Source: Oceanicaulis sp. (GTDB lineage: Bacteria > Pseudomonadota > Alphaproteobacteria > Caulobacterales > Maricaulaceae). From it: 64,000 bases of DNA. Location: positions 2,443,501-2,507,500 of the forward strand of contig CP157796.1 in the NCBI GenBank assembly GCA_040112665.1, given 5' to 3'. A program made the translations under genes and the position numbers. Positions within the stretch are counted from its first letter, which is position 1. Each line of letters opens with the position of its first letter. Of the stretch, positions 36,541-45,332 are shown in pieces. Below the pieces are notes generated by a model. The model did not search any database and was not told where the DNA came from. It saw only the letters and a program-made list of their open reading frames with translations.

Positions 36541-36558
36541 ACCGCTCCACGCCGATGC

Positions 36559-36633
36559 GGGCCCTTCGTCTATCGGTTAGGACGCCAGGTTTTCAACCTG
36601 GAAAGAGGGGTTCGATTCCCCTAGGGCCTGCCA
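36559..36633 (+). tRNA. tRNA-Glu (anticodon UUC)
   Basis: 75 nt with encoded CCA. The anticodon stem CCAGG/CCTGG holds loop TTTTCAA, giving anticodon TTC. The T arm is AGGGG-TTCGATT-CCCCT and the seven-pair acceptor begins GGGCCCT. The 3' 14 nt (36620-36633) plus seven following bases recur at 38448-38468, marking this gene as an integration site. Confidence 0.95.
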
Positions 36634-36640
36634 TCGGCGT
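36620..36640 (+). repeat. Left attachment repeat (attL) in the tRNA-Glu 3' end
   Basis: 21-bp sequence CCTAGGGCCTGCCATCGGCG followed by T, covering the tRNA 3' end and seven bases beyond CCA. It is identical to 38448-38468. The functional tRNA is kept on this side. Confidence 0.9.
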
Positions 36641-36669
36641 TATATTTCCCCCTTAAGTCGTTGAAATAT

Positions 36670-36798
36670 ATGCCGAAATCGGCAGTCTGCGTTACAGGTT
36701 GCGGCGGAATCGAACTGTTCGCTTTAGCATCAAAAAACAATGCGTTAGCTGAAAGATTAGCCGAGCGTAAGCGGCCACGCGCCCTGCCAATCCTGTAA
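36670..36798 (+). CDS. Possible 42-residue reading frame at the start of the mini-island
   Basis: ATG to TAA, beginning MPKSAVCVTGCGGIELF and ending RKRPRALPIL. No clear ribosome binding site (upstream is TTGAAATAT). Its stop lies inside the internal 19-bp repeat. No similarity recognised. It could be a remnant of a truncated gene or chance. Listed because it is the only candidate in the 263 bp between the tRNA and the next gene. Confidence 0.2.
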   Translation: MPKSAVCVTGCGGIELFALASKNNALAERLAERKRPRALPIL

Positions 36799-36809
36799 AA
36801 TTCCGGTAA
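36791..36809 (+). repeat. Left copy of internal island repeat, next to a 7-bp-stem palindrome
   Basis: TCCTGTAAAATTCCGGTAA; 17 of 19 bases match 38389-38407. The copy overlaps a perfect hairpin AATTCCG-GTAA-CGGAATT (36799-36816). Repeats near both ends of an element can be recombinase arm sites, excisionase sites or promoter elements. Confidence 0.55.
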
Positions 36810-36903
36810 CGGAATTTGTACGGTACGGCGTAAGGCTCACGCGGCCAAAGGTAACTCTTTCAAAAGCTGCACTAGCTAGGTTACGCTCCTAGGGGAGATA
36901 GCC

Positions 36904-37719
36904 ATGAGTGAGACGGTTGCTGATCGCCAGATTGGCTTCAAAGTGTATGGCCCCGCTTCAATGGATGGAGCGGACGTGGCGGCTGACGTGTATGCGCGCA
37001 AGCTGGCCGCGTTCATCGCCGCACTAAAGGCAGCCGATAAAGCTACTAGCGATGGAAAGGGGCGCTACCGCTATAGAATAGCGCGCCTTCATACATCAAT
37101 ACCGACAGCGATCATCCGGGAAGAGGGAATTGCTCCCCTCGGCGAGTTCGATGCGTCAGGCATTGAGAGTTTTCTTCAGTGCGCTGATCTCCTCAAACGA
37201 GGCGACCCGGAAGCCCTTCGATATGGTGATTGTGCGAAGTACCTAGGGGCATTGTCGAGAACCAATCCTGAGTTTGGATACGCGGAGGCCTGGGACTCGA
37301 AAAACCGCGTCGTTAGAGCCGACAAGTTTCTGAGGGACCAAGCTAAGCGCGTCCTTAGCCCGGCTTCTCGTCGGCCCGAGAGTGCAGGTTGGTTCAAGGG
37401 GGCCACTTATGGCACTTTCGATGGGCTCCTTCAGGTCATTGATAATCGTGGCAGGCTGCCTCTGCTGAAGATCGCGCTCTCTGCTGGAGGACGCGAAATC
37501 GACTGCCTTGGAAGCAGTGATGAGCTGGATAGGGTCGCCTCTTACATCGGCAAACGGGTGAGGGTTTTCGGTCAAGCCATGTACGACGGCTCCGATGGTC
37601 TTCCGGTTAGGATTGAAGCAATTAGATTTGAACCAGTGAAAGCGGAGTCGGATTTTAGTCGTTGGAAAGGGGCTTTTGAACATTTTGATGCTGGTGCTTG
37701 GGGGGTGGACTATGAATAA
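36904..37719 (+). CDS. Unknown protein encoded with the PIN-domain nuclease (antitoxin candidate)
   Basis: 271 residues, soluble, no signal. Two parts are visible. The N-terminal part has a helix (VYARKLAAFIAALKAADKAT, about 30-49) followed by beta strands (RYRYRIARLHTSIPTAIIRE). A C-terminal segment, about 165-245, looks like a small beta barrel: FDGLLQVIDNRGRLPLLKIA, IDCLGSSDELDRVASYIGKR, VRVFGQAMYDGSDGLPVRIE. I do not recognise a named family. AGGGGAGA precedes the ATG. The next gene's ATG lies within its last eight bases, a translation-coupled order like toxin-antitoxin pairs. Base composition differs from the chromosome. Antitoxin or RNA-binding regulator is inference. Confidence 0.8.
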   Translation: MSETVADRQIGFKVYGPASMDGADVAADVYARKLAAFIAALKAADKATSDGKGRYRYRIARLHTSIPTAIIREEGIAPLGEFDASGIESFLQCADLLKRGDPEALRYGDCAKYLGALSRTNPEFGYAEAWDSKNRVVRADKFLRDQAKRVLSPASRRPESAGWFKGATYGTFDGLLQVIDNRGRLPLLKIALSAGGREIDCLGSSDELDRVASYIGKRVRVFGQAMYDGSDGLPVRIEAIRFEPVKAESDFSRWKGAFEHFDAGAWGVDYE

Positions 37720-38338
37720 CCCGCCCACACCACTTTTTTGGGATAGCTGTAATTTTATTCGTTATGCGACAGGCGCGGGAAACGAAGAGTTTGTTGATGA
37801 TTTGAGCCTATTTATAGATGAATCGCGCGGTAAAAATCCTCGATGGAAAATTTACTACTCTACTATTGTTCTGGCCGAGTTTCGTCCCAGCTTGCTTAAA
37901 AGTACGAAATTCGGCGGAATCGATGATTTTTTTGATGATTTTGGGAGTGCGTTCTATCCAATAGATCCTAACCCGGTGATCCTAGCAGACGCCGGAAGGA
38001 TTAAGGACATTCGGCCGCATGATAAGTCCAATCCTCGTATGCCCTCTAAGCGGGTAGTCGGCACTCCCGACGCGATACATCTAGCCACATGCCTCTTTGC
38101 CCGAGACGTCCTTGGTATCTCGGATATTTCTTTCCAGACGCTCGATAAGGGGAAGGGGTCGAGCTGGGAGGGCAAATGTCTGCCATTGGTGGGGCTAGAA
38201 GACTGGTTTCCGCCGGAGGCTCGGTGCGACGTCACGAAGCGAGTTCTTGGACTGAAGCGGGAGCTACCGAAACACCCCGAGCCGAGGCTGATTGGGTTAG
38301 TCGGCTCAAAGACCGCTGCTAGTTCTGTAGGCAATTAA
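37712..38338 (+). CDS. PIN-domain ribonuclease (VapC-like toxin or defence effector candidate)
   Basis: 208 residues. All four acidic positions of a PIN active site are present: Asp11 (LFWDSCNF), Glu56 (TIVLAEF), Asp120 (GTPDAIHLA) and Asp145 (FQTLDKG). A middle insertion (about 60-110) and a C-terminal extension of about 60 residues make it longer than classical VapC (about 130). Such proteins cleave RNA, often tRNA or rRNA. The ATG follows a G-rich ribosome binding site inside the upstream gene and overlaps it by eight bases. It is the last gene of the mini-island. Confidence 0.85.
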   Translation: MNNPPTPLFWDSCNFIRYATGAGNEEFVDDLSLFIDESRGKNPRWKIYYSTIVLAEFRPSLLKSTKFGGIDDFFDDFGSAFYPIDPNPVILADAGRIKDIRPHDKSNPRMPSKRVVGTPDAIHLATCLFARDVLGISDISFQTLDKGKGSSWEGKCLPLVGLEDWFPPEARCDVTKRVLGLKRELPKHPEPRLIGLVGSKTAASSVGN

Positions 38339-38388
38339 CCGAAGCGTATGTTGGAGCCGAAAAGGAGCATTGAGAACACAAAAACCAT

Positions 38389-38407
38389 TCCTGTAAAATG
38401 ACGGTAA
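38389..38407 (+). repeat. Right copy of internal island repeat
   Basis: TCCTGTAAAATGACGGTAA, same orientation as the left copy at 36791-36809, about 40 bp before the right attachment repeat. Confidence 0.55.
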
Positions 38408-38447
38408 TGCCGGCTTAAGCAATTGAAGAAAAAGGCATTTCGGTGTG

Positions 38448-38468
38448 CCTAGGGCCTGCCATCGGCGT
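38448..38468 (+). repeat. Right attachment repeat (attR), tRNA-Glu 3'-end remnant
   Basis: Identical 21 bp to 36620-36640, with no tRNA body beside it. Ordinary high-GC chromosome resumes after it. Confidence 0.9.
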
Positions 38469-38504
38469 GTTTTCGTTTCCCGACATCTCGACCACGACGC
38501 CGCC

Positions 38505-39080
38505 TCAGCCCGGGGCGAGAAACATGTGGTCGGTCCAGATCCAGATCCCGATGCCGACGAGGATCAGACCGCCGAGGAGTTCGGCGCGCTTGCCCAGCGC
38601 CGCGCCGACCACGGGGCCGATGACGAAGCCGGCCGTGCTGATGACGGCGGACACTGCGCCGACGATGAATGCGACGTAGACCGGCGCGCCCGACAGGCTG
38701 AGCGCGACGCCGACCGCGGCGGAGTCCACGCTGGTGCCGATCGCGGTGACGACGGTTCGAACAAACCCGCTTCGCGGCGGCGCGCCGGACGGCGTTTGCT
38801 CTGCATCTTCAAAGGATTCGACGATCATCTTGCCGCCGATCGCGCCCAGCAAAGCGAGCGCGATCCAGTGATCTAAAGCCGTGACCAGACCGGCGAAGGC
38901 GTGGCCCAGCATCCAGCCGCCCAGGCACATCAGCCCCTCGACCCCGCCGAAGGTCAGACCGTTCCTGATCGCCTCCGACACCCGGACCGACCGGCGCGCC
39001 GCGCCGCGGGCGACAGAGGCGGCGAAGGCGTCGCCGGAAAGTCCGACAGCGGTCAGACCAAGCGTGAAGCTTGCAAGCAT
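38505..39080 (-). CDS. mntP: Putative manganese efflux pump
   Basis: 191 residues with six hydrophobic spans, the MntP size. Two internally similar halves carry the family's conserved acidic motifs: LSGDAFAASVARG (about 14-26) in the first helix and GTSVDSAAVGVALSL (about 112-126) in the fourth. It exports Mn(II) across the inner membrane. It is a stand-alone gene right after the mini-island, with a roughly 70-bp gap to the histidine kinase gene upstream. I looked for a Mn riboswitch in the upstream 70 bp and see none. Confidence 0.9.
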   Translation of the reverse strand: MLASFTLGLTAVGLSGDAFAASVARGAARRSVRVSEAIRNGLTFGGVEGLMCLGGWMLGHAFAGLVTALDHWIALALLGAIGGKMIVESFEDAEQTPSGAPPRSGFVRTVVTAIGTSVDSAAVGVALSLSGAPVYVAFIVGAVSAVISTAGFVIGPVVGAALGKRAELLGGLILVGIGIWIWTDHMFLAPG

Positions 39081-39150
39081 GAGGCGTCCTGCGGCGGGGC
39101 GGGGGCGCTTTTCCTAGCACGGCCAGCGCCTTATGTGGGACGCGGCCGGC

Positions 39151-40293
39151 TCAACGCGCCCTGAATTCCAGCGTCAGGCGCGCGCCGCCGTCCGCCCCGT
39201 TCCAGCGCGCACTTGCGCCGATCTGTTCGGACAGGCCGTCGATCAGGGTCATGCCGCCGCCAGGACGGCCCGCCTTGCGGTCGGCGGCGTCGAACCCCGG
39301 TCCGTCATCGCTGAGTTCCAGACGCACGCTGTCGGCGTCGATCCTCGACAATCGCAGGCGGACGCATCCGCTCCTGCCGGTGAAGGCGTATTTGAAGCTG
39401 TTGGTGATGAACTCGTTGACGATCAGCCCGAGCGGGGTGGCCAGCTCGGACGAAGAGGTGACCGGGTCGGTCTGAACCTCGCAGCGTACGTCCGGGAAGC
39501 GGTCGCGGTTCATTTCCAGAAGATTGTCGACCAGGCTCGTGAGATAGGACGCAAGGTCGAGCCTGTCCCCGTCCTCGCTCTCATGCAGCCGCGCGTGCAC
39601 GAGATGAAGCGTGTCCAGCCGGTCGGCCACATAACCGAGCTCGAGCCGGGCGGTTTCGTTGTCGGTGCGGCGCTGCCGGATCCGCGCCAGCGCCGCCATG
39701 GTGGCGAGATTGTTCTTCACCCGGTGCTGCAGCTCGCTCATCAGCGTTTCGTTGCGCTGCATGGCCTGCTTCAGCGAATGCAGCTTGTGCAGCCGATCGA
39801 TCACGGGACCCAGAATGGAGCCGTAGGTCCTCAGAAATTCGATATCGACGCGGTCGAATTCGCGGGGCTCGCGGTCGTCGACCTGCAACAGGCCGAAAGC
39901 CCGACCGCCGGGCAGGAAGATCGGCACGTTGACCAGTGCGACGACCCCGGCGTTCCGCATGAACTCGGGAAACTCGAAACGGGTCTCTTTGCGGATATCC
40001 CGGGTGATCAGAGGTTCGCCACTGGCGATCGCGAAGGTCTCCGAAGACCGTTCCGACAGACGCATCGTCGCGCGCCCGACCACCTGGTCAGGCCAGCCCA
40101 CGCCGGCCACGACACGCGCCGTGCCGTCGCCGTTCTCGATCTCGACGACCTTGGACATGGGCGTGCCGAGGCTGCGGGACACCAGGCGGCAGGCCTCGGT
40201 CAGAACGTCATAGAGATCGTCCGAGCGCAGAGCGTATTCGCCGAAGTCGGCCAGCACGCGCTGGCGTTCGATCATATCGTCAAGGGACCGCAA
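39151..40293 (-). CDS. Sensor histidine kinase with GAF domain, HisKA_2 type
   Basis: 380 residues, no membrane span, so cytosolic. A GAF domain (about 20-165) precedes the HisKA_2 dimerisation domain with phospho-acceptor His in ELQHRVKNNLATMAAL (about 191-206). A HATPase domain follows with N box VNEFITNSFKYAF, and G boxes DDGPGFD and GGGMTLIDGL. This class phosphorylates stand-alone response regulators, often in the general stress response or light and redox sensing. The TTG start is used since homologues begin near the SLDDMIERQ motif, and ATG six codons later is possible. No response regulator gene is adjacent. Confidence 0.88.
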   Translation of the reverse strand: MRSLDDMIERQRVLADFGEYALRSDDLYDVLTEACRLVSRSLGTPMSKVVEIENGDGTARVVAGVGWPDQVVGRATMRLSERSSETFAIASGEPLITRDIRKETRFEFPEFMRNAGVVALVNVPIFLPGGRAFGLLQVDDREPREFDRVDIEFLRTYGSILGPVIDRLHKLHSLKQAMQRNETLMSELQHRVKNNLATMAALARIRQRRTDNETARLELGYVADRLDTLHLVHARLHESEDGDRLDLASYLTSLVDNLLEMNRDRFPDVRCEVQTDPVTSSSELATPLGLIVNEFITNSFKYAFTGRSGCVRLRLSRIDADSVRLELSDDGPGFDAADRKAGRPGGGMTLIDGLSEQIGASARWNGADGGARLTLEFRAR

Positions 40294-40478
40294 AAATACG
40301 CTCGATGCGACAGGAGCCCTAGTCTAGCTGTCAGGATAAACCGATCCTTGTTGCGATTGAAACCGTGACGGCGCCCCTTGATCGCAGTGCGAGGCGAATC
40401 CGGGCGTCACCGATCGGAACGAAGGGCGGGGGCGGCGGCGTTCACGCTACGGCGGGGCGCGATCGACCGAGGTCTGTG

Positions 40479-41672
40479 ATGCTTCTTCGTTCCTGTCTCG
40501 CCGCGGGCGCCGCCGGTGCCGCGCTTTGCACGTTTGCAGCGCCCGCTTCAGCGCAGTCGTCCTGCGGTTCTCGCTACGCCGTGGAGTATGGCGACACCCT
40601 GTATCAGATCGCCCAGCAGTGCCGGACGTCACTGAACCAGATCATGGATCTCAATCCGCGGCTCGATCCCCGCGCGCTGAACGTCGGCGAGGTGATCCGG
40701 CTTGAGCCGCGCGCCGACCGCGACGCCGAACCCGATCCGCGCCAGACCGGCGGGCAGTACCGGGTCCGCCGAGGCGATACGCCCTACACGATCGCAGAAC
40801 GGGTCGGCGTCTCTCTATTCGAGCTTCTGGCGGCGAACACCGACATCGACGCCGACGCCCTTCCGGTGGGCGAAATCCTCGACATTCCCGGCCGCCGCAA
40901 CCGGCAGGCGGGGTTTTCCATCTCGCCCAGGCAGGGCGGGCCGGACACCGAGGTGACGCTTCAGGCCTATAACCTGCGGCCCGGCGACTGGGTGACCATC
41001 GGCGCAGGTCCGCAGGCCAGCGAATGGCGCGCCATCGATCAGGCTCAGGTGAACGAGGACGGCGAGCTCACCGCAACGGTCGAAACGCCCGACTACGCAG
41101 ATCCGGGCGACAACTTCATCTTCGTGATCGACACCGATCGCGGGCTGACCTTGAAATCGGACGTGTTCGACGTGACCGGCCGCACCGGCGACGATCCCGG
41201 CCCGCTTTATGAATTCACCGGCCGGGTCCGCGAAGGCGCCGAGTGCTATACGCTTCAGGCCGAGAACGGCGCGGAGTACGCCCTGACCAGCGACGATGTC
41301 AGCTTCACCGCCGGCGAATATGTGCGCGTCGAAGGCCGGCGCGCCGGCTATTCATACTGCCAGGACGGGCGATTCACGCTCGATGTCGGGCTCATCGAAG
41401 AGGCCTCTCCGCCACGTGACGACGACTGGGACGACGACGAGCGCCGCTGGCGCGGCGATCGCGAGGTGGCGCTGGAGGGCCGTGTGCGGCGCGGCGTGGA
41501 ATGCTGGACGCTGACCACGCCTGACGGCGATCTCTATGCGATGACCAGCGACGACGTGCGCTTCACCGAAGGCGAATACGTCGAGATCACCGGCGAAACC
41601 GTCGATGTGAGCTTCTGCCAGCAGGGCGAGGCGACGATCGACGTGGAGACGATCGCCGAGCCGCGCCGCTAG
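40479..41672 (+). CDS. Secreted double-LysM protein with two C-terminal repeats
   Basis: 397 residues. A Sec signal (about 1-25, APASAQSS) precedes two LysM domains (about 30-75, YAVEYGDTLYQIAQQC; about 87-131, YRVRRGDTPYTIAERV) that bind peptidoglycan or chitin-like glycan. An Ig-like segment follows. Two tandem copies of a roughly 60-residue unit end the protein: one begins EFTGRVREGAECYTL and the other ALEGRVRRGVECWTL, both containing ALTSDDVSFT/AMTSDDVRFT. An acidic linker joins them. GAGG lies seven bases before ATG. Its stop shares CTAG with the convergent lipoprotein gene. Confidence 0.88.
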   Translation: MLLRSCLAAGAAGAALCTFAAPASAQSSCGSRYAVEYGDTLYQIAQQCRTSLNQIMDLNPRLDPRALNVGEVIRLEPRADRDAEPDPRQTGGQYRVRRGDTPYTIAERVGVSLFELLAANTDIDADALPVGEILDIPGRRNRQAGFSISPRQGGPDTEVTLQAYNLRPGDWVTIGAGPQASEWRAIDQAQVNEDGELTATVETPDYADPGDNFIFVIDTDRGLTLKSDVFDVTGRTGDDPGPLYEFTGRVREGAECYTLQAENGAEYALTSDDVSFTAGEYVRVEGRRAGYSYCQDGRFTLDVGLIEEASPPRDDDWDDDERRWRGDREVALEGRVRRGVECWTLTTPDGDLYAMTSDDVRFTEGEYVEITGETVDVSFCQQGEATIDVETIAEPRR

Positions 41673-42286
41673 TTGCAGGTGCGCGCCGAGAAGATCGAGC
41701 CGATGGAGCTGCGGCAGGTGTCGGTCTGGGCCGACGGTCCTGCGGGCCGGCGCGAGGGCGTCGCGTCCTCGACCATCGCCGCCCGCAGCTCGCCCAGGCC
41801 CTGGGAGGCGTCCATGAAGCGCTGTTGGGCGCTGTCCCAGGTCGCCCGGGTGGCCGAGCACGCGCCTTCGTCATAGCCGCGCACCTGCATGCACATCGCA
41901 TAGCTGCGGCAGCTCTGGGCGGCGAAGCGGTAGGCGGCGTCGAGGTCGAATTCGAACGTGCGCAGAAGCCCGGTCAGCTCGCTTTGCGGCGCGGCGGGCG
42001 GCATCTGGGTCAGGCGGCGTTCGTCGGCCTCGTAGGTGCTGTCAGGCTCGCCCTGATAGCCGTAGACGAGGCTGCGGGCGATCTCGATCCGGCTGTCGCG
42101 TTCCTCACGCAGGGAGCTGATCTCGCAGACCCGTTCGGCGATGTCGATCGCGGCGGCGTCGCTTGCGGCGACGGACGGCGGAAGCGGTCCGACCGGGCCG
42201 GGGTTCGGCGGCAGGGGCGGTCCGGTCTCGACGCAAGCCGCAAGGGCGAGAGCGGCGGCGCTGATGGCGAGGATTGCGGGTTTCAT
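41669..42286 (-). CDS. Lipoprotein of unknown function
   Basis: 205 residues. A lipobox signal (ALALAAC, acylated Cys about 18) is followed by a Pro-rich stretch, then a helical domain with several cysteines (CEISS, CRSYAMCMQ, CSATRATWD) and a final TCRSSIGSIFSARTCN. No known domain. A 13-bp gap separates it from the upstream Sel1 gene, so the two may form a unit. Probable outer-membrane or periplasmic location from the signal. Confidence 0.72.
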   Translation of the reverse strand: MKPAILAISAAALALAACVETGPPLPPNPGPVGPLPPSVAASDAAAIDIAERVCEISSLREERDSRIEIARSLVYGYQGEPDSTYEADERRLTQMPPAAPQSELTGLLRTFEFDLDAAYRFAAQSCRSYAMCMQVRGYDEGACSATRATWDSAQQRFMDASQGLGELRAAMVEDATPSRRPAGPSAQTDTCRSSIGSIFSARTCN

Positions 42287-42299
42287 GATGCGCCTCGTT

Positions 42300-43784
42300 T
42301 CACTGTTCGTTAGGAGCGGTGATGCACCCGCTCGCAATGCTGTCGCCTGTGTACTGGTCGAGCCCGGCAAGGCCTCCGCCGTCGGGATCGTCGCTCAGCG
42401 CGTCGCCGAGCTCTTCGCGGATCCGGTCCCATCGCGCTTTTGCGTCAGGGCCGGCGCGCGATCCGATCTCGCGCAGCCGCGCTGAAAGCGGATGGCCGAG
42501 CGCCTGGGCTTCACGAAGATAGGCCCAGGCGCGGTCGTGATTTTCCACCACCGCGCAGAGCCGGTAGCTGCCCAGCACGGCCTGGGTGCCGAAGATGAGC
42601 GCGAGATTGAAGTTCGCGTCCGGATCGCCGCGCTGGGCGGCGATCTGGAACCACTCCAGCGCGAGATCGGTGTTCTGCTCCACGCCGAGCCCGGTCGCAT
42701 GCATGATCCCGAGCACGTTCTGCATTGCGGGGTCGCGGGCGGTTTGGGCGGCGTGACAGACCAGCTGGGAGGTCTGGTCTGGCGTCAGCGTCCCTGTTTC
42801 GTCGTATCCGAACTCGCGCTGCAGCGCGCGGACCGCGTCGCTGGTCGCCGGTCCGTACTCGCCGTCGATGGTCCCGTTGTAATAGCCGAGCGCCGAGAGC
42901 GCCGCCTGGCGGACCCTCAGACTGATCGCCTCGTTCGAGACGTTGCTCTGGGGCAGGGCGATCCGGCGCAGCGACGCGACCGTTGTGGGGCACTGCACGC
43001 TGTGACCCTGGATGCGGCGCTGAGCGAGGATGCCGGCCTGCGCGCCGAACACCTCCGACCAGGCCACCGCGTTGCGCCAGGCGCGTAAAGCCCGGTCGCG
43101 CGGCGTGAGGTCCTCGCCCGGTGAACGCGTGATGCCCGGAAACCGGAAAATGCTGACCGATTCGCTCTGAGCCGCAGCGGCCGAGGTGCTGCTGATCGCT
43201 TCGCTGGCCAGTTCGGCGTCGCCGATCAGAAGCCAGTACCGCGCGCCGGCGGCGTATTCGCGCGCCAGCCGGATGCGGTCGGTGGCGCGCTGTTCGGGCG
43301 TCACCGCAGGCGGTTGCGCCGGAAAACGCCGGGAGTCGCGCCAGGTGTCGCTTCCGCCGCCGGTCGGGTTCGAGATCGGCGGCCAGCCGTCATCGTCCTC
43401 GTCGTCCAGGAAAGCCTCGGGTCCGTGATCGCGTCCGTCGCAGGCGTCGAAATTGCACGCGCGCGACGCGTACCGGCAGACGTTCTGGATCGCCTCGTCT
43501 TCGTCGAGCGGGCGATCGAGCCATTCGTAGCGCCGGCTGCTTCGCGGATCGCGATCGGCTTCGGTGTCGCGCACGATCGCGAGGAAGTCGTCATATTCCG
43601 CGCCGAGCAGATGCGATTGCATCACCTGTTCGAAACAGGCGCAGGCGGCCGGATCGCTCCGGCCGCAATACCGATCAAACCCGCCGCTTGAAGAGGACCC
43701 GCCGCCGAACGGCCACTGAACCGCCAAAGCGGTCAGGAGCAGTACGGCGCCGCCAATCGCGCTGGAGCGAATCGTCACGCTCAT
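42300..43784 (-). CDS. Secreted peptidoglycan-binding and Sel1-repeat protein
   Basis: 494 residues, first ATG chosen because GAGGGG precedes it. An N-terminal signal or anchor (about 4-24) is followed by a Cys-rich segment. A peptidoglycan-binding_1 domain comes next (about 285-345: LRVRQAALSALGYYNGTIDGEYG then DAVRALQREFGY), then Sel1-like repeats (about 365-450: NVLGIMHATGLGVEQNTDLALEWFQIAA). The combination suggests an envelope protein that binds cell wall and organises partners. A CtrA-like motif lies 54 bp before the start. It faces the same direction as the lipoprotein. Confidence 0.82.
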   Translation of the reverse strand: MSVTIRSSAIGGAVLLLTALAVQWPFGGGSSSSGGFDRYCGRSDPAACACFEQVMQSHLLGAEYDDFLAIVRDTEADRDPRSSRRYEWLDRPLDEDEAIQNVCRYASRACNFDACDGRDHGPEAFLDDEDDDGWPPISNPTGGGSDTWRDSRRFPAQPPAVTPEQRATDRIRLAREYAAGARYWLLIGDAELASEAISSTSAAAAQSESVSIFRFPGITRSPGEDLTPRDRALRAWRNAVAWSEVFGAQAGILAQRRIQGHSVQCPTTVASLRRIALPQSNVSNEAISLRVRQAALSALGYYNGTIDGEYGPATSDAVRALQREFGYDETGTLTPDQTSQLVCHAAQTARDPAMQNVLGIMHATGLGVEQNTDLALEWFQIAAQRGDPDANFNLALIFGTQAVLGSYRLCAVVENHDRAWAYLREAQALGHPLSARLREIGSRAGPDAKARWDRIREELGDALSDDPDGGGLAGLDQYTGDSIASGCITAPNEQ

Positions 43785-43837
43785 ACGCCGGTCCCCTCGC
43801 ATTTCCCAATTCCCCTGAGCGTCAGGGTCATGGATCG

Positions 43838-43852
43838 TTAACCAAAGGTCAA
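43838..43852. promoter_or_regulatory. Candidate CtrA binding site
   Basis: TTAA-CCAAAGG-TCAA, one mismatch to TTAA-N7-TTAA, correct spacing, upstream of the Sel1/peptidoglycan-binding gene. Confidence 0.35.
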
Positions 43853-43905
43853 CTGGCGAGGCCGAGCGGCGGACGAATTTTCCCCAAGGTGTGACCGGGC
43901 CGTGT

Positions 43906-44433
43906 TCAGGCCCTGGCGCGCTCGATCGCCTCGACGATCAGCTGGCGGGCGCGCTCGGCCCCGTACCAGCCTTCGACCTTCACCCATTTGCGCGGTTCGA
44001 GGTCCTTGTAGTGCTCGAAGAAGTGCGTGATGCGCGCGAGCTGGGCCTCGTGCACGTCGGTGTAGTCCGCGATGTTGTCGTAGAACGGCGACAGCTTGTG
44101 GTGCGGCGCGGCGAGGATTTTCTCGTCCTGGCCGCTTTCGTCTTCCATCAGGAGCACCCCGATCGGACGGGCGCGAACCACGCAGCCGGGGATCAGCTCG
44201 GTCTGGCCCAGCACCATCACGTCGATCGGATCGCCGTCGTCGGACAGGGTGTGGGGGATGAAGCCGTAATTGCACGGATAGCGCATCGGGGTGTGCAGGA
44301 AGCGGTCGACGAAGACCGTGCCGGCCTCCTTGTCGAGTTCGTACTTCACCGGCTGGCCGCCGACGGGAACCTCGACGATCACGTTGACGTCTTCAGGCGG
44401 ATTTTCGCCGATGGCGATCTTGTCGATGCGCAT
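43906..44433 (-). CDS. ppa: Inorganic pyrophosphatase, class I
   Basis: 175 residues, standard bacterial size. Hydrolyses pyrophosphate to drive biosynthesis. Signature [17 protein letters not shown] (about 15-31), [20 protein letters not shown] (about 55-74) with the triple-Asp metal motif, and a later [14 protein letters not shown] (about 104-117). The ATG has AAGGAG 12 bases upstream. It is not clearly in an operon and sits between Sel1 and DUF192 genes transcribed away from each other. Confidence 0.97.
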
Positions 44434-44556
44434 GGGGAGGGCTCCTTGATCTGTTTTGCGGCGAAAGAAGCCGCAGCCGCGCTCCGCCGCAAGCGGTTTC
44501 GCGCCGCGCGCGCTGAAAAATCGCAGCCCCGTGCCGCCTGTCGGCGCGGGCGCCGA

Positions 44557-44585
44557 TTGCCCGGCGGCGCGGGCGGAGCTAGGTT
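44557..44585 (+). promoter_or_regulatory. Sigma-70-type promoter for the DUF192 gene, probably leaderless
   Basis: TTGCCC (44557-44562), 17-base spacer, TAGGTT (44580-44585). The coding ATG is at 44593, seven bases after the -10, so transcription would start at or next to the start codon. Confidence 0.5.
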
Positions 44586-44592
44586 CGCGTCC

Positions 44593-45204
44593 ATGATCAA
44601 AGCGCGCCTCACTCTTCTTCTCGCCGCCCTGGCTTCAGGCTTCGGTTTCACCGCTTGCGCCGCTGCGCAAGGCTTCGTCGATCCAACCGCCCCTGACGCG
44701 GTCGTTCAGTACGGCGGACCCGACCCGCTCGTGATCGAGACCGGGGAGGGGGAAACCGTCACCCTGACGGTGGAACTCGCCGAAACGCCTGAAGCCCGCC
44801 AGCGCGGGATGATGTGGCGTGAGGAGCTGGCGGCTGACGCAGGCATGCTGTTCGACTTCCAGGTCGAGCAGCCGGTCTCGATCTGGATGGCCAACACGCC
44901 GCTGCCGCTCGACCTCATCTACATCCGGGCCGACGGCACGATCGCGAAGGTCGCTGTGGGTGCGGTTCCGTTCTCGCGCCGCTCGATCTCGTCTGACGTG
45001 CCGGTGCTCGCTGTGCTGGAAATCAATGGCGGCCGGTCCGTCGAGCTCGGCATCGATCCTGGCGACGTCGTGCGCCATCGCTGGTTCGGCAATGTCGAGG
45101 CCGCTGAACCGGCGACGGAAACGCCGGCTGAAACGCCCGCCGCAGAAGCCGGTGAAGAGCCCGCCGAAGAGCCCGGCGCCGAGCCGCTGCCCGAAGAGGG
45201 CTAG
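44593..45204 (+). CDS. Secreted DUF192 protein
   Basis: 203 residues. A signal peptide (about 1-25, TACAAAQG, the Cys giving a possible lipobox) precedes a DUF192 domain (about 40-155) with the family motifs [20 protein letters not shown] and [24 protein letters not shown] Glu/Pro/Ala-rich tail of about 40 residues follows ([18 protein letters not shown]), perhaps a spacer. The family's role is unknown. Usual length is about 150 residues, so the tail is extra. No classical ribosome binding site, consistent with a leaderless start. The gene precedes tRNA-Pro. Confidence 0.85.
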
Positions 45205-45210
45205 CATCGC

Positions 45211-45239
45211 TTGCCAGCCGCGCGCGGGCGGCCTAAACC
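45211..45239 (+). promoter_or_regulatory. Sigma-70-type promoter of tRNA-Pro
   Basis: TTGCCA (45211-45216), 17-base spacer, TAAACC (45234-45239). The tRNA starts 16 bases later. Confidence 0.65.
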
Positions 45240-45255
45240 CGCTTTGAAACAACGC

Positions 45256-45332
45256 CGGGGCGTAGCGCAGCCTGGTAGCGCATCTGCTTTGGGAGCAGAG
45301 GGTCGCTGGTTCGAATCCGGCCGCCCCGACCA
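45256..45332 (+). tRNA. tRNA-Pro (anticodon UGG)
   Basis: 77 nt with encoded CCA. Acceptor CGGGGCG/CGCCCCG; anticodon arm TCTGC-TTTGGGA-GCAGA gives TGG; T arm CTGG-TTCGAAT-CCGG. Confidence 0.96.

Follow-up and report, generated by a model that had tools for sequence, protein, structure and literature searches.

A tRNA-Glu (TTC) gene lies within the window, by which we mean the whole stretch of 64,000 nucleotides analyzed here, and is followed by a short segment that carries two genes and is bounded by two copies of a 21-bp repeat. The features of the locus, in window coordinates, are as follows.

36549..36557, forward strand: ACGCCGATG, complementary to CATCGGCGT (36632-36640) and possibly the 5' arm of a precursor stem enclosing tRNA-Glu (pairing read by eye)
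36559..36633, forward strand: tRNA-Glu (TTC), the putative integration target (ARAGORN; Rfam RF00005)
36620..36640, forward strand: attL-like 21-bp core, consisting of 14 nt of the tRNA 3' end plus TCGGCGT (repeat and genome search)
36791..36809, forward strand: left copy of a subterminal direct repeat, TCCTGTAAAATTCCGGTAA, a candidate integrase arm-type site
36904..37719, forward strand: gene for P0001, the 271-aa partner of the PIN protein, whose low-confidence model shows an OB-fold-like barrel at the C-terminus
37712..38338, forward strand: gene for P0002, a 208-aa predicted PIN-domain (VapC-like) protein, overlapping the upstream gene by 8 nt
38389..38407, forward strand: right copy of the subterminal direct repeat, TCCTGTAAAATGACGGTAA, a candidate arm-type site
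38448..38468, forward strand: attR-like 21-bp core (repeat and genome search)
38469..38504, no strand assigned: chromosomal flank with short similarity to the sequence following tRNA-Glu in three related genomes

The two cores are perfect copies of the 21-mer CCTAGGGCCTGCCATCGGCGT spaced 1828 bp apart, and each comprises the final 14 nt of tRNA-Glu, CCA included, together with the seven bases that follow. A search of the 3,078,920-base genome allowing up to 3 mismatches returned these two sites only, and a reversed control pattern of the 21-mer gave no matches in the whole genome. The repeat covers the tRNA end plus one arm of a putative precursor stem, as the nine bases just 5' of the tRNA could pair with the seven downstream bases; this pairing was read from the sequence.

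Between the cores the G+C content is 0.519, compared to a window mean of 0.668 and a lowest value of 0.615 for any other 1.8-kb stretch in the window, and the drop is sharp, with its edges at the 21-bp repeats. The element, at approximately 36620-38468, is filled by the two overlapping open reading frames. Neither encodes an integrase, recombinase, or relaxase, and translation of the two non-coding ends gave ten stop-free segments, in which Pfam detected no integrase remnant. Packaging, replication, and transfer genes were likewise absent from the element, and no phage-packaging, regulatory, or phage-interference feature of the satellite type was recognized in it. An earlier note on this DNA had described an exact recurrence of the tRNA end plus seven bases, a shift to A+T between the repeats, and only two genes there, all of which agree with the measurements above.

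The tRNA-Glu locus was then compared among relatives, which are species other than this one. P0001 was absent from all 60 relatives searched, 14 of them within the genus. Its distribution was also patchy further afield, with P0001 found in 4 of 385 genomes of the class and 2 of 398 of the phylum, this genome being included in each count. In the 17 relatives examined in the recJ/tRNA-Glu neighborhood, no partial duplicate of the tRNA end was found downstream within the available contig; the tRNA end was present there either as a single copy or within whole tRNA genes repeated in tandem (genomes G007 and G014). Approximately 100 genomes of the order possess the exact 14-nt tRNA end. Of the few with two copies, G007 and G014 have the tandem tRNA genes, the copies are 166 bp apart in G494 and on different contigs in G667, and only the present genome was seen to have a partial copy approximately 1.8 kb away. 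Tandem tRNA-Glu(TTC) genes approximately 240 bp apart were observed in two species of the genus (L051:1462-1777 and L057:14801-15117).

The flank to the right of attR resembles the sequence following the tRNA in three relatives, beyond or near the limit set by shuffled sequences and better than does the left end of the island. The pre-insertion site is deduced from other species whose genes to the right of attR also differ. Repeat, composition, missing cargo genes, and single-copy tRNA ends in relatives together support the earlier proposal of an island inserted at the tRNA 3' end. They leave hardly any room for a chance repeat or an ancestral locus, for which the small size of the element is the one favorable feature: the 21-mer is confined to two genome sites, the composition is foreign, and the relatives do not carry the genes, so that the ancestral pattern of native composition and shared genes was not what the comparison returned.

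A second direct repeat, absent from the earlier note, lies inside the cores and outside the genes, where TCCTGTAAAATNNCGGTAA begins at 36791 and again at 38389. When the non-coding ends were compared with each other, the top-scoring ungapped 19-nt match comprised 17 identities of 19, compared to a maximum of 16 in 3000 pairs of shuffled sequences, while a longer form (36787-36809 versus 38385-38407) has 20 of 23 positions identical, a score matched once in 3000 shuffles. Gapped local alignment of the island ends was weaker evidence than the ungapped test, with 9 of 2000 shuffles aligning equally well. The repeat had no further match at one mismatch in the genome or in the 60 relatives, and among the 385 class genomes an 18-nt form of the motif occurs here only. 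This position and uniqueness would fit a pair of arm-type sites for a tyrosine integrase. A perfect inverted repeat, ATTCCG-GTAA-CGGAAT (window 36800-36815), overlaps the left subterminal repeat approximately 90 bp 5' of the first gene and could be an operator. Near both cores there is also a CTTAAG..TTGAA pair, which by estimate is a chance occurrence.

We then examined the two proteins encoded between the repeats. P0002 alone gave a weak PIN match (E 0.063) below the Pfam cut-off; all six of its homologues matched PIN, the best with an E value of 2.5e-6, and the acidic residues D11, E56, D120, and D145 are invariant across these six. The structural model of P0002 is weak (pLDDT 54), and its best fold matches include PIN proteins and VapC toxins. 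P0001 was modeled with a pLDDT of 62, and its C-terminal barrel gave weak matches largely to OB-fold proteins (RPA, SSB, PriB, and LysRS). No match to P0001 was found in Pfam, NCBIfam, or PADLOC, nor to P0002 in NCBIfam or PADLOC. Both predicted folds serve as leads, the PIN fold being the firmer because of the sequence matches and the invariant acidic residues.

As in VapBC systems, the second gene of a two-gene operon whose reading frames overlap would encode a PIN protein with conserved acidic residues. Unlike VapBC, the partner is a 271-aa protein whose C-terminus is OB-fold-like in a weak model, rather than a small DNA-binding VapB antitoxin, and the PIN protein of the island is longer and by itself falls under the Pfam cut-off. 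We found nothing on this pair of PIN protein and partner in the open-access literature searched.

The same pair, with both genes always adjacent, was found at six other loci.

L010, Azospirillum prophage: pair between phage structural genes; a matching locus (L062) appears in IMG/VR
L011, Prosthecomicrobium hirschii: IS1595-family transposon (L011:5005-7880) with the pair as passenger
L070, Roseomonas marmotae plasmid: IS1595-family transposon (L070:6782-9385) with the pair as passenger
L071, genome G357: IS1595-family transposon (L071:6673-9234) with the pair as passenger
L072, genome G403: pair present
L083, genome G857: IS1595-family transposon (L083:3868-about 8300) with the pair as passenger

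A seventh, weak match lies at a contig end in genome G345 (L073). In the Azospirillum prophage the pair forms an opposite-strand, moron-like insert among the structural genes (L010:6001-7376). An IS1595-family transposase is encoded 5' of the pair in L011, L070, L071, and L083, the call being just under the Pfam cut-off for L071 and made by similarity of the open reading frame to that of L011 for L083. Inverted ends are present on the loci of this type, and perfect 8-bp target duplications, which are typical of the IS1595 family (PMC8101967), flank the elements in L070 (TATCTTTA) and L071 (TATTTTTT). The transposase reading frame is shortened in L071, and in L083 the transposase is separated from the pair by the insertion of another IS.

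Since four other loci have the pair on IS1595-family elements, the island might be a copy of such a transposon that lost its transposase and happened to land beside a tRNA gene. IS1595-family transposons with passenger genes are known, such as tISCpe8 and MTnSag1 (PMC5704250), and they resemble L070, L071, L011, and L083 in having cargo beside the transposase. The island, unlike these, has neither transposase nor 8-bp target duplication, its flanking repeat being the 21-bp tRNA end, and it lacks terminal inverted repeats: comparison of its ends gave 11-14 matches of 25, within the range of shuffled sequences, whereas positive controls gave 20-25 with their own repeats. The IS1595 transposase is moreover absent from the whole genome. 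This origin is therefore extremely improbable. A resemblance to an IS1595 end at the left end of the island, GGCGTTAT, was dismissed because it falls mostly inside the att core. Judged by its neighbors elsewhere, beside IS1595 transposases or in a prophage, and by the lack of IS1595 ends and transposase here, the pair is a mobile cargo module that in this genome is not on an IS1595 element. Most likely it is a toxin-antitoxin-like or defense operon, spread by mobile elements of several kinds.

Seven genes of the phage integrase family are present in the genome. Two are Xer-like by length and sequence. The other five lie at 1.24, 1.43, 1.96, 2.18, and 2.61 Mb, and three of them have an arm-DNA-binding domain. 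Neither the core nor the arm repeat was found near any resident recombinase, so that no resident helper is evident. In viral contigs, neither the core nor the tRNA end had a match, and the four single matches to the arm motif are near the number estimated for chance. Across the genome, the viral contigs, and the 385 class genomes, no parent island or helper with an identical core or arm sequence was found. With no integrase remnant in the island either, the parental element is hypothetical.

In our view, this is probably a solitary, CIME-type integrated element that is non-autonomous: an att-flanked remnant of an island with a tyrosine integrase, or a passenger of one, from which integrase and helper are gone. 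The earlier note had stated that islands normally carry their integrase; this holds for intact islands and overlooks the CIMEs, an att-flanked, integrase-less class of 1.2-13 kb with cargo, many of them at a tRNA-Lys gene (PMC7563491). The note had offered a satellite moved in trans or an island whose integrase was deleted. The second of these, as a CIME-type element, is favored by the lack of satellite features, by the lack of a resident helper with matching sites, and by att-flanked, integrase-less elements being an established class, and the satellite in the phage sense found no support, as packaging and regulatory features were not recognized.

We infer the following history. A tyrosine integrase would have acted on an attP site that included a copy of the tRNA-Glu 3' end, recombining it into the tRNA-Glu gene of the chromosome; this would have kept the tRNA whole at the left (attL) and placed a second 21-bp core at the right (attR). 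Loss of the integrase and of any transfer genes would have followed, most likely by deletion inside a larger island, and what was left over would be attL, attR, the two subterminal repeats resembling arm sites, and the two-gene cargo.

The element is like the Streptococcus CIMEs at tRNA-Lys, rpsI, and fda (PMC7563491, PMC5704250) in being flanked by direct att repeats at a site-specific target, in its size, in carrying cargo only, with no integrase and no conjugation, mobilization, or transfer genes, and in targeting a tRNA 3' end. It differs from them in standing by itself, with no ICE or IME in tandem, in having a hypothetical parent, in residing in an alphaproteobacterium, and in that any accretion or mobilization of it would be hypothetical. 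Compared to the phage satellites PICI, PICMI, and tycheposons (PMC11389934), it is similarly small, chromosomally integrated, and presumably helper-dependent; unlike PICI and PICMI, which have an integrase and packaging or phage-interference genes, it has no integrase and no recognized gene of the other kinds.

It is also conceivable, if unlikely, that the 1.8-kb unit is no decay product and is itself mobile, being excised and integrated in trans by a helper's integrase. The unit is compact, each of its ends retains a core and a subterminal repeat, its coding genes are intact, and it shares its genome with five tyrosine recombinases that are not Xer-like. Against this, no second example of the unit was found in the 60 relatives or the sampled class genomes, the resident recombinases have neither repeat nearby, and the element has no packaging, replication, or transfer gene. 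A stronger version, to which we give a distinctly small chance, would make it an integrative element of under 2 kb mobilized in trans by integrases belonging to unrelated helpers, with two cores, two arm sites, and an addiction or defense operon of PIN protein and partner, and thus the tyrosine-integrase counterpart of a cargo-carrying MITE. The segment might instead have come, already att-flanked at tRNA-Glu, from a donor by homologous recombination or natural transformation, with no recombinase acting in this lineage; this would require no helper in the genome, in keeping with none having been found. This route only shifts the insertion event to the donor, and no donor was found in the genus; we regard it as very unlikely.

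As a remnant or passenger of the CIME type, the island is most likely of an ordinary kind and unusually compact and clean. Stranded mini-islands are already known as CIMEs, which makes it a neat new example and not a new kind. Surveys that rely on integrase genes or on tandem ICE or IME partners miss such solitary and very small elements, and single CIMEs were stated to be beyond identification by the method of PMC7563491. Less expected is that one PIN pair is tied to a tRNA-site island here and to IS1595 (DDE) transposons and a prophage elsewhere, and such a range of mobility routes suggests that the module is selfish or protective cargo.

The interval between tRNA-Glu and tRNA-Pro (window 36634-45256; loci L045-L061) ranges from approximately 1.3 to 8.6 kb among related genomes, with differing genes and G+C dips, and the region is thus generally variable.
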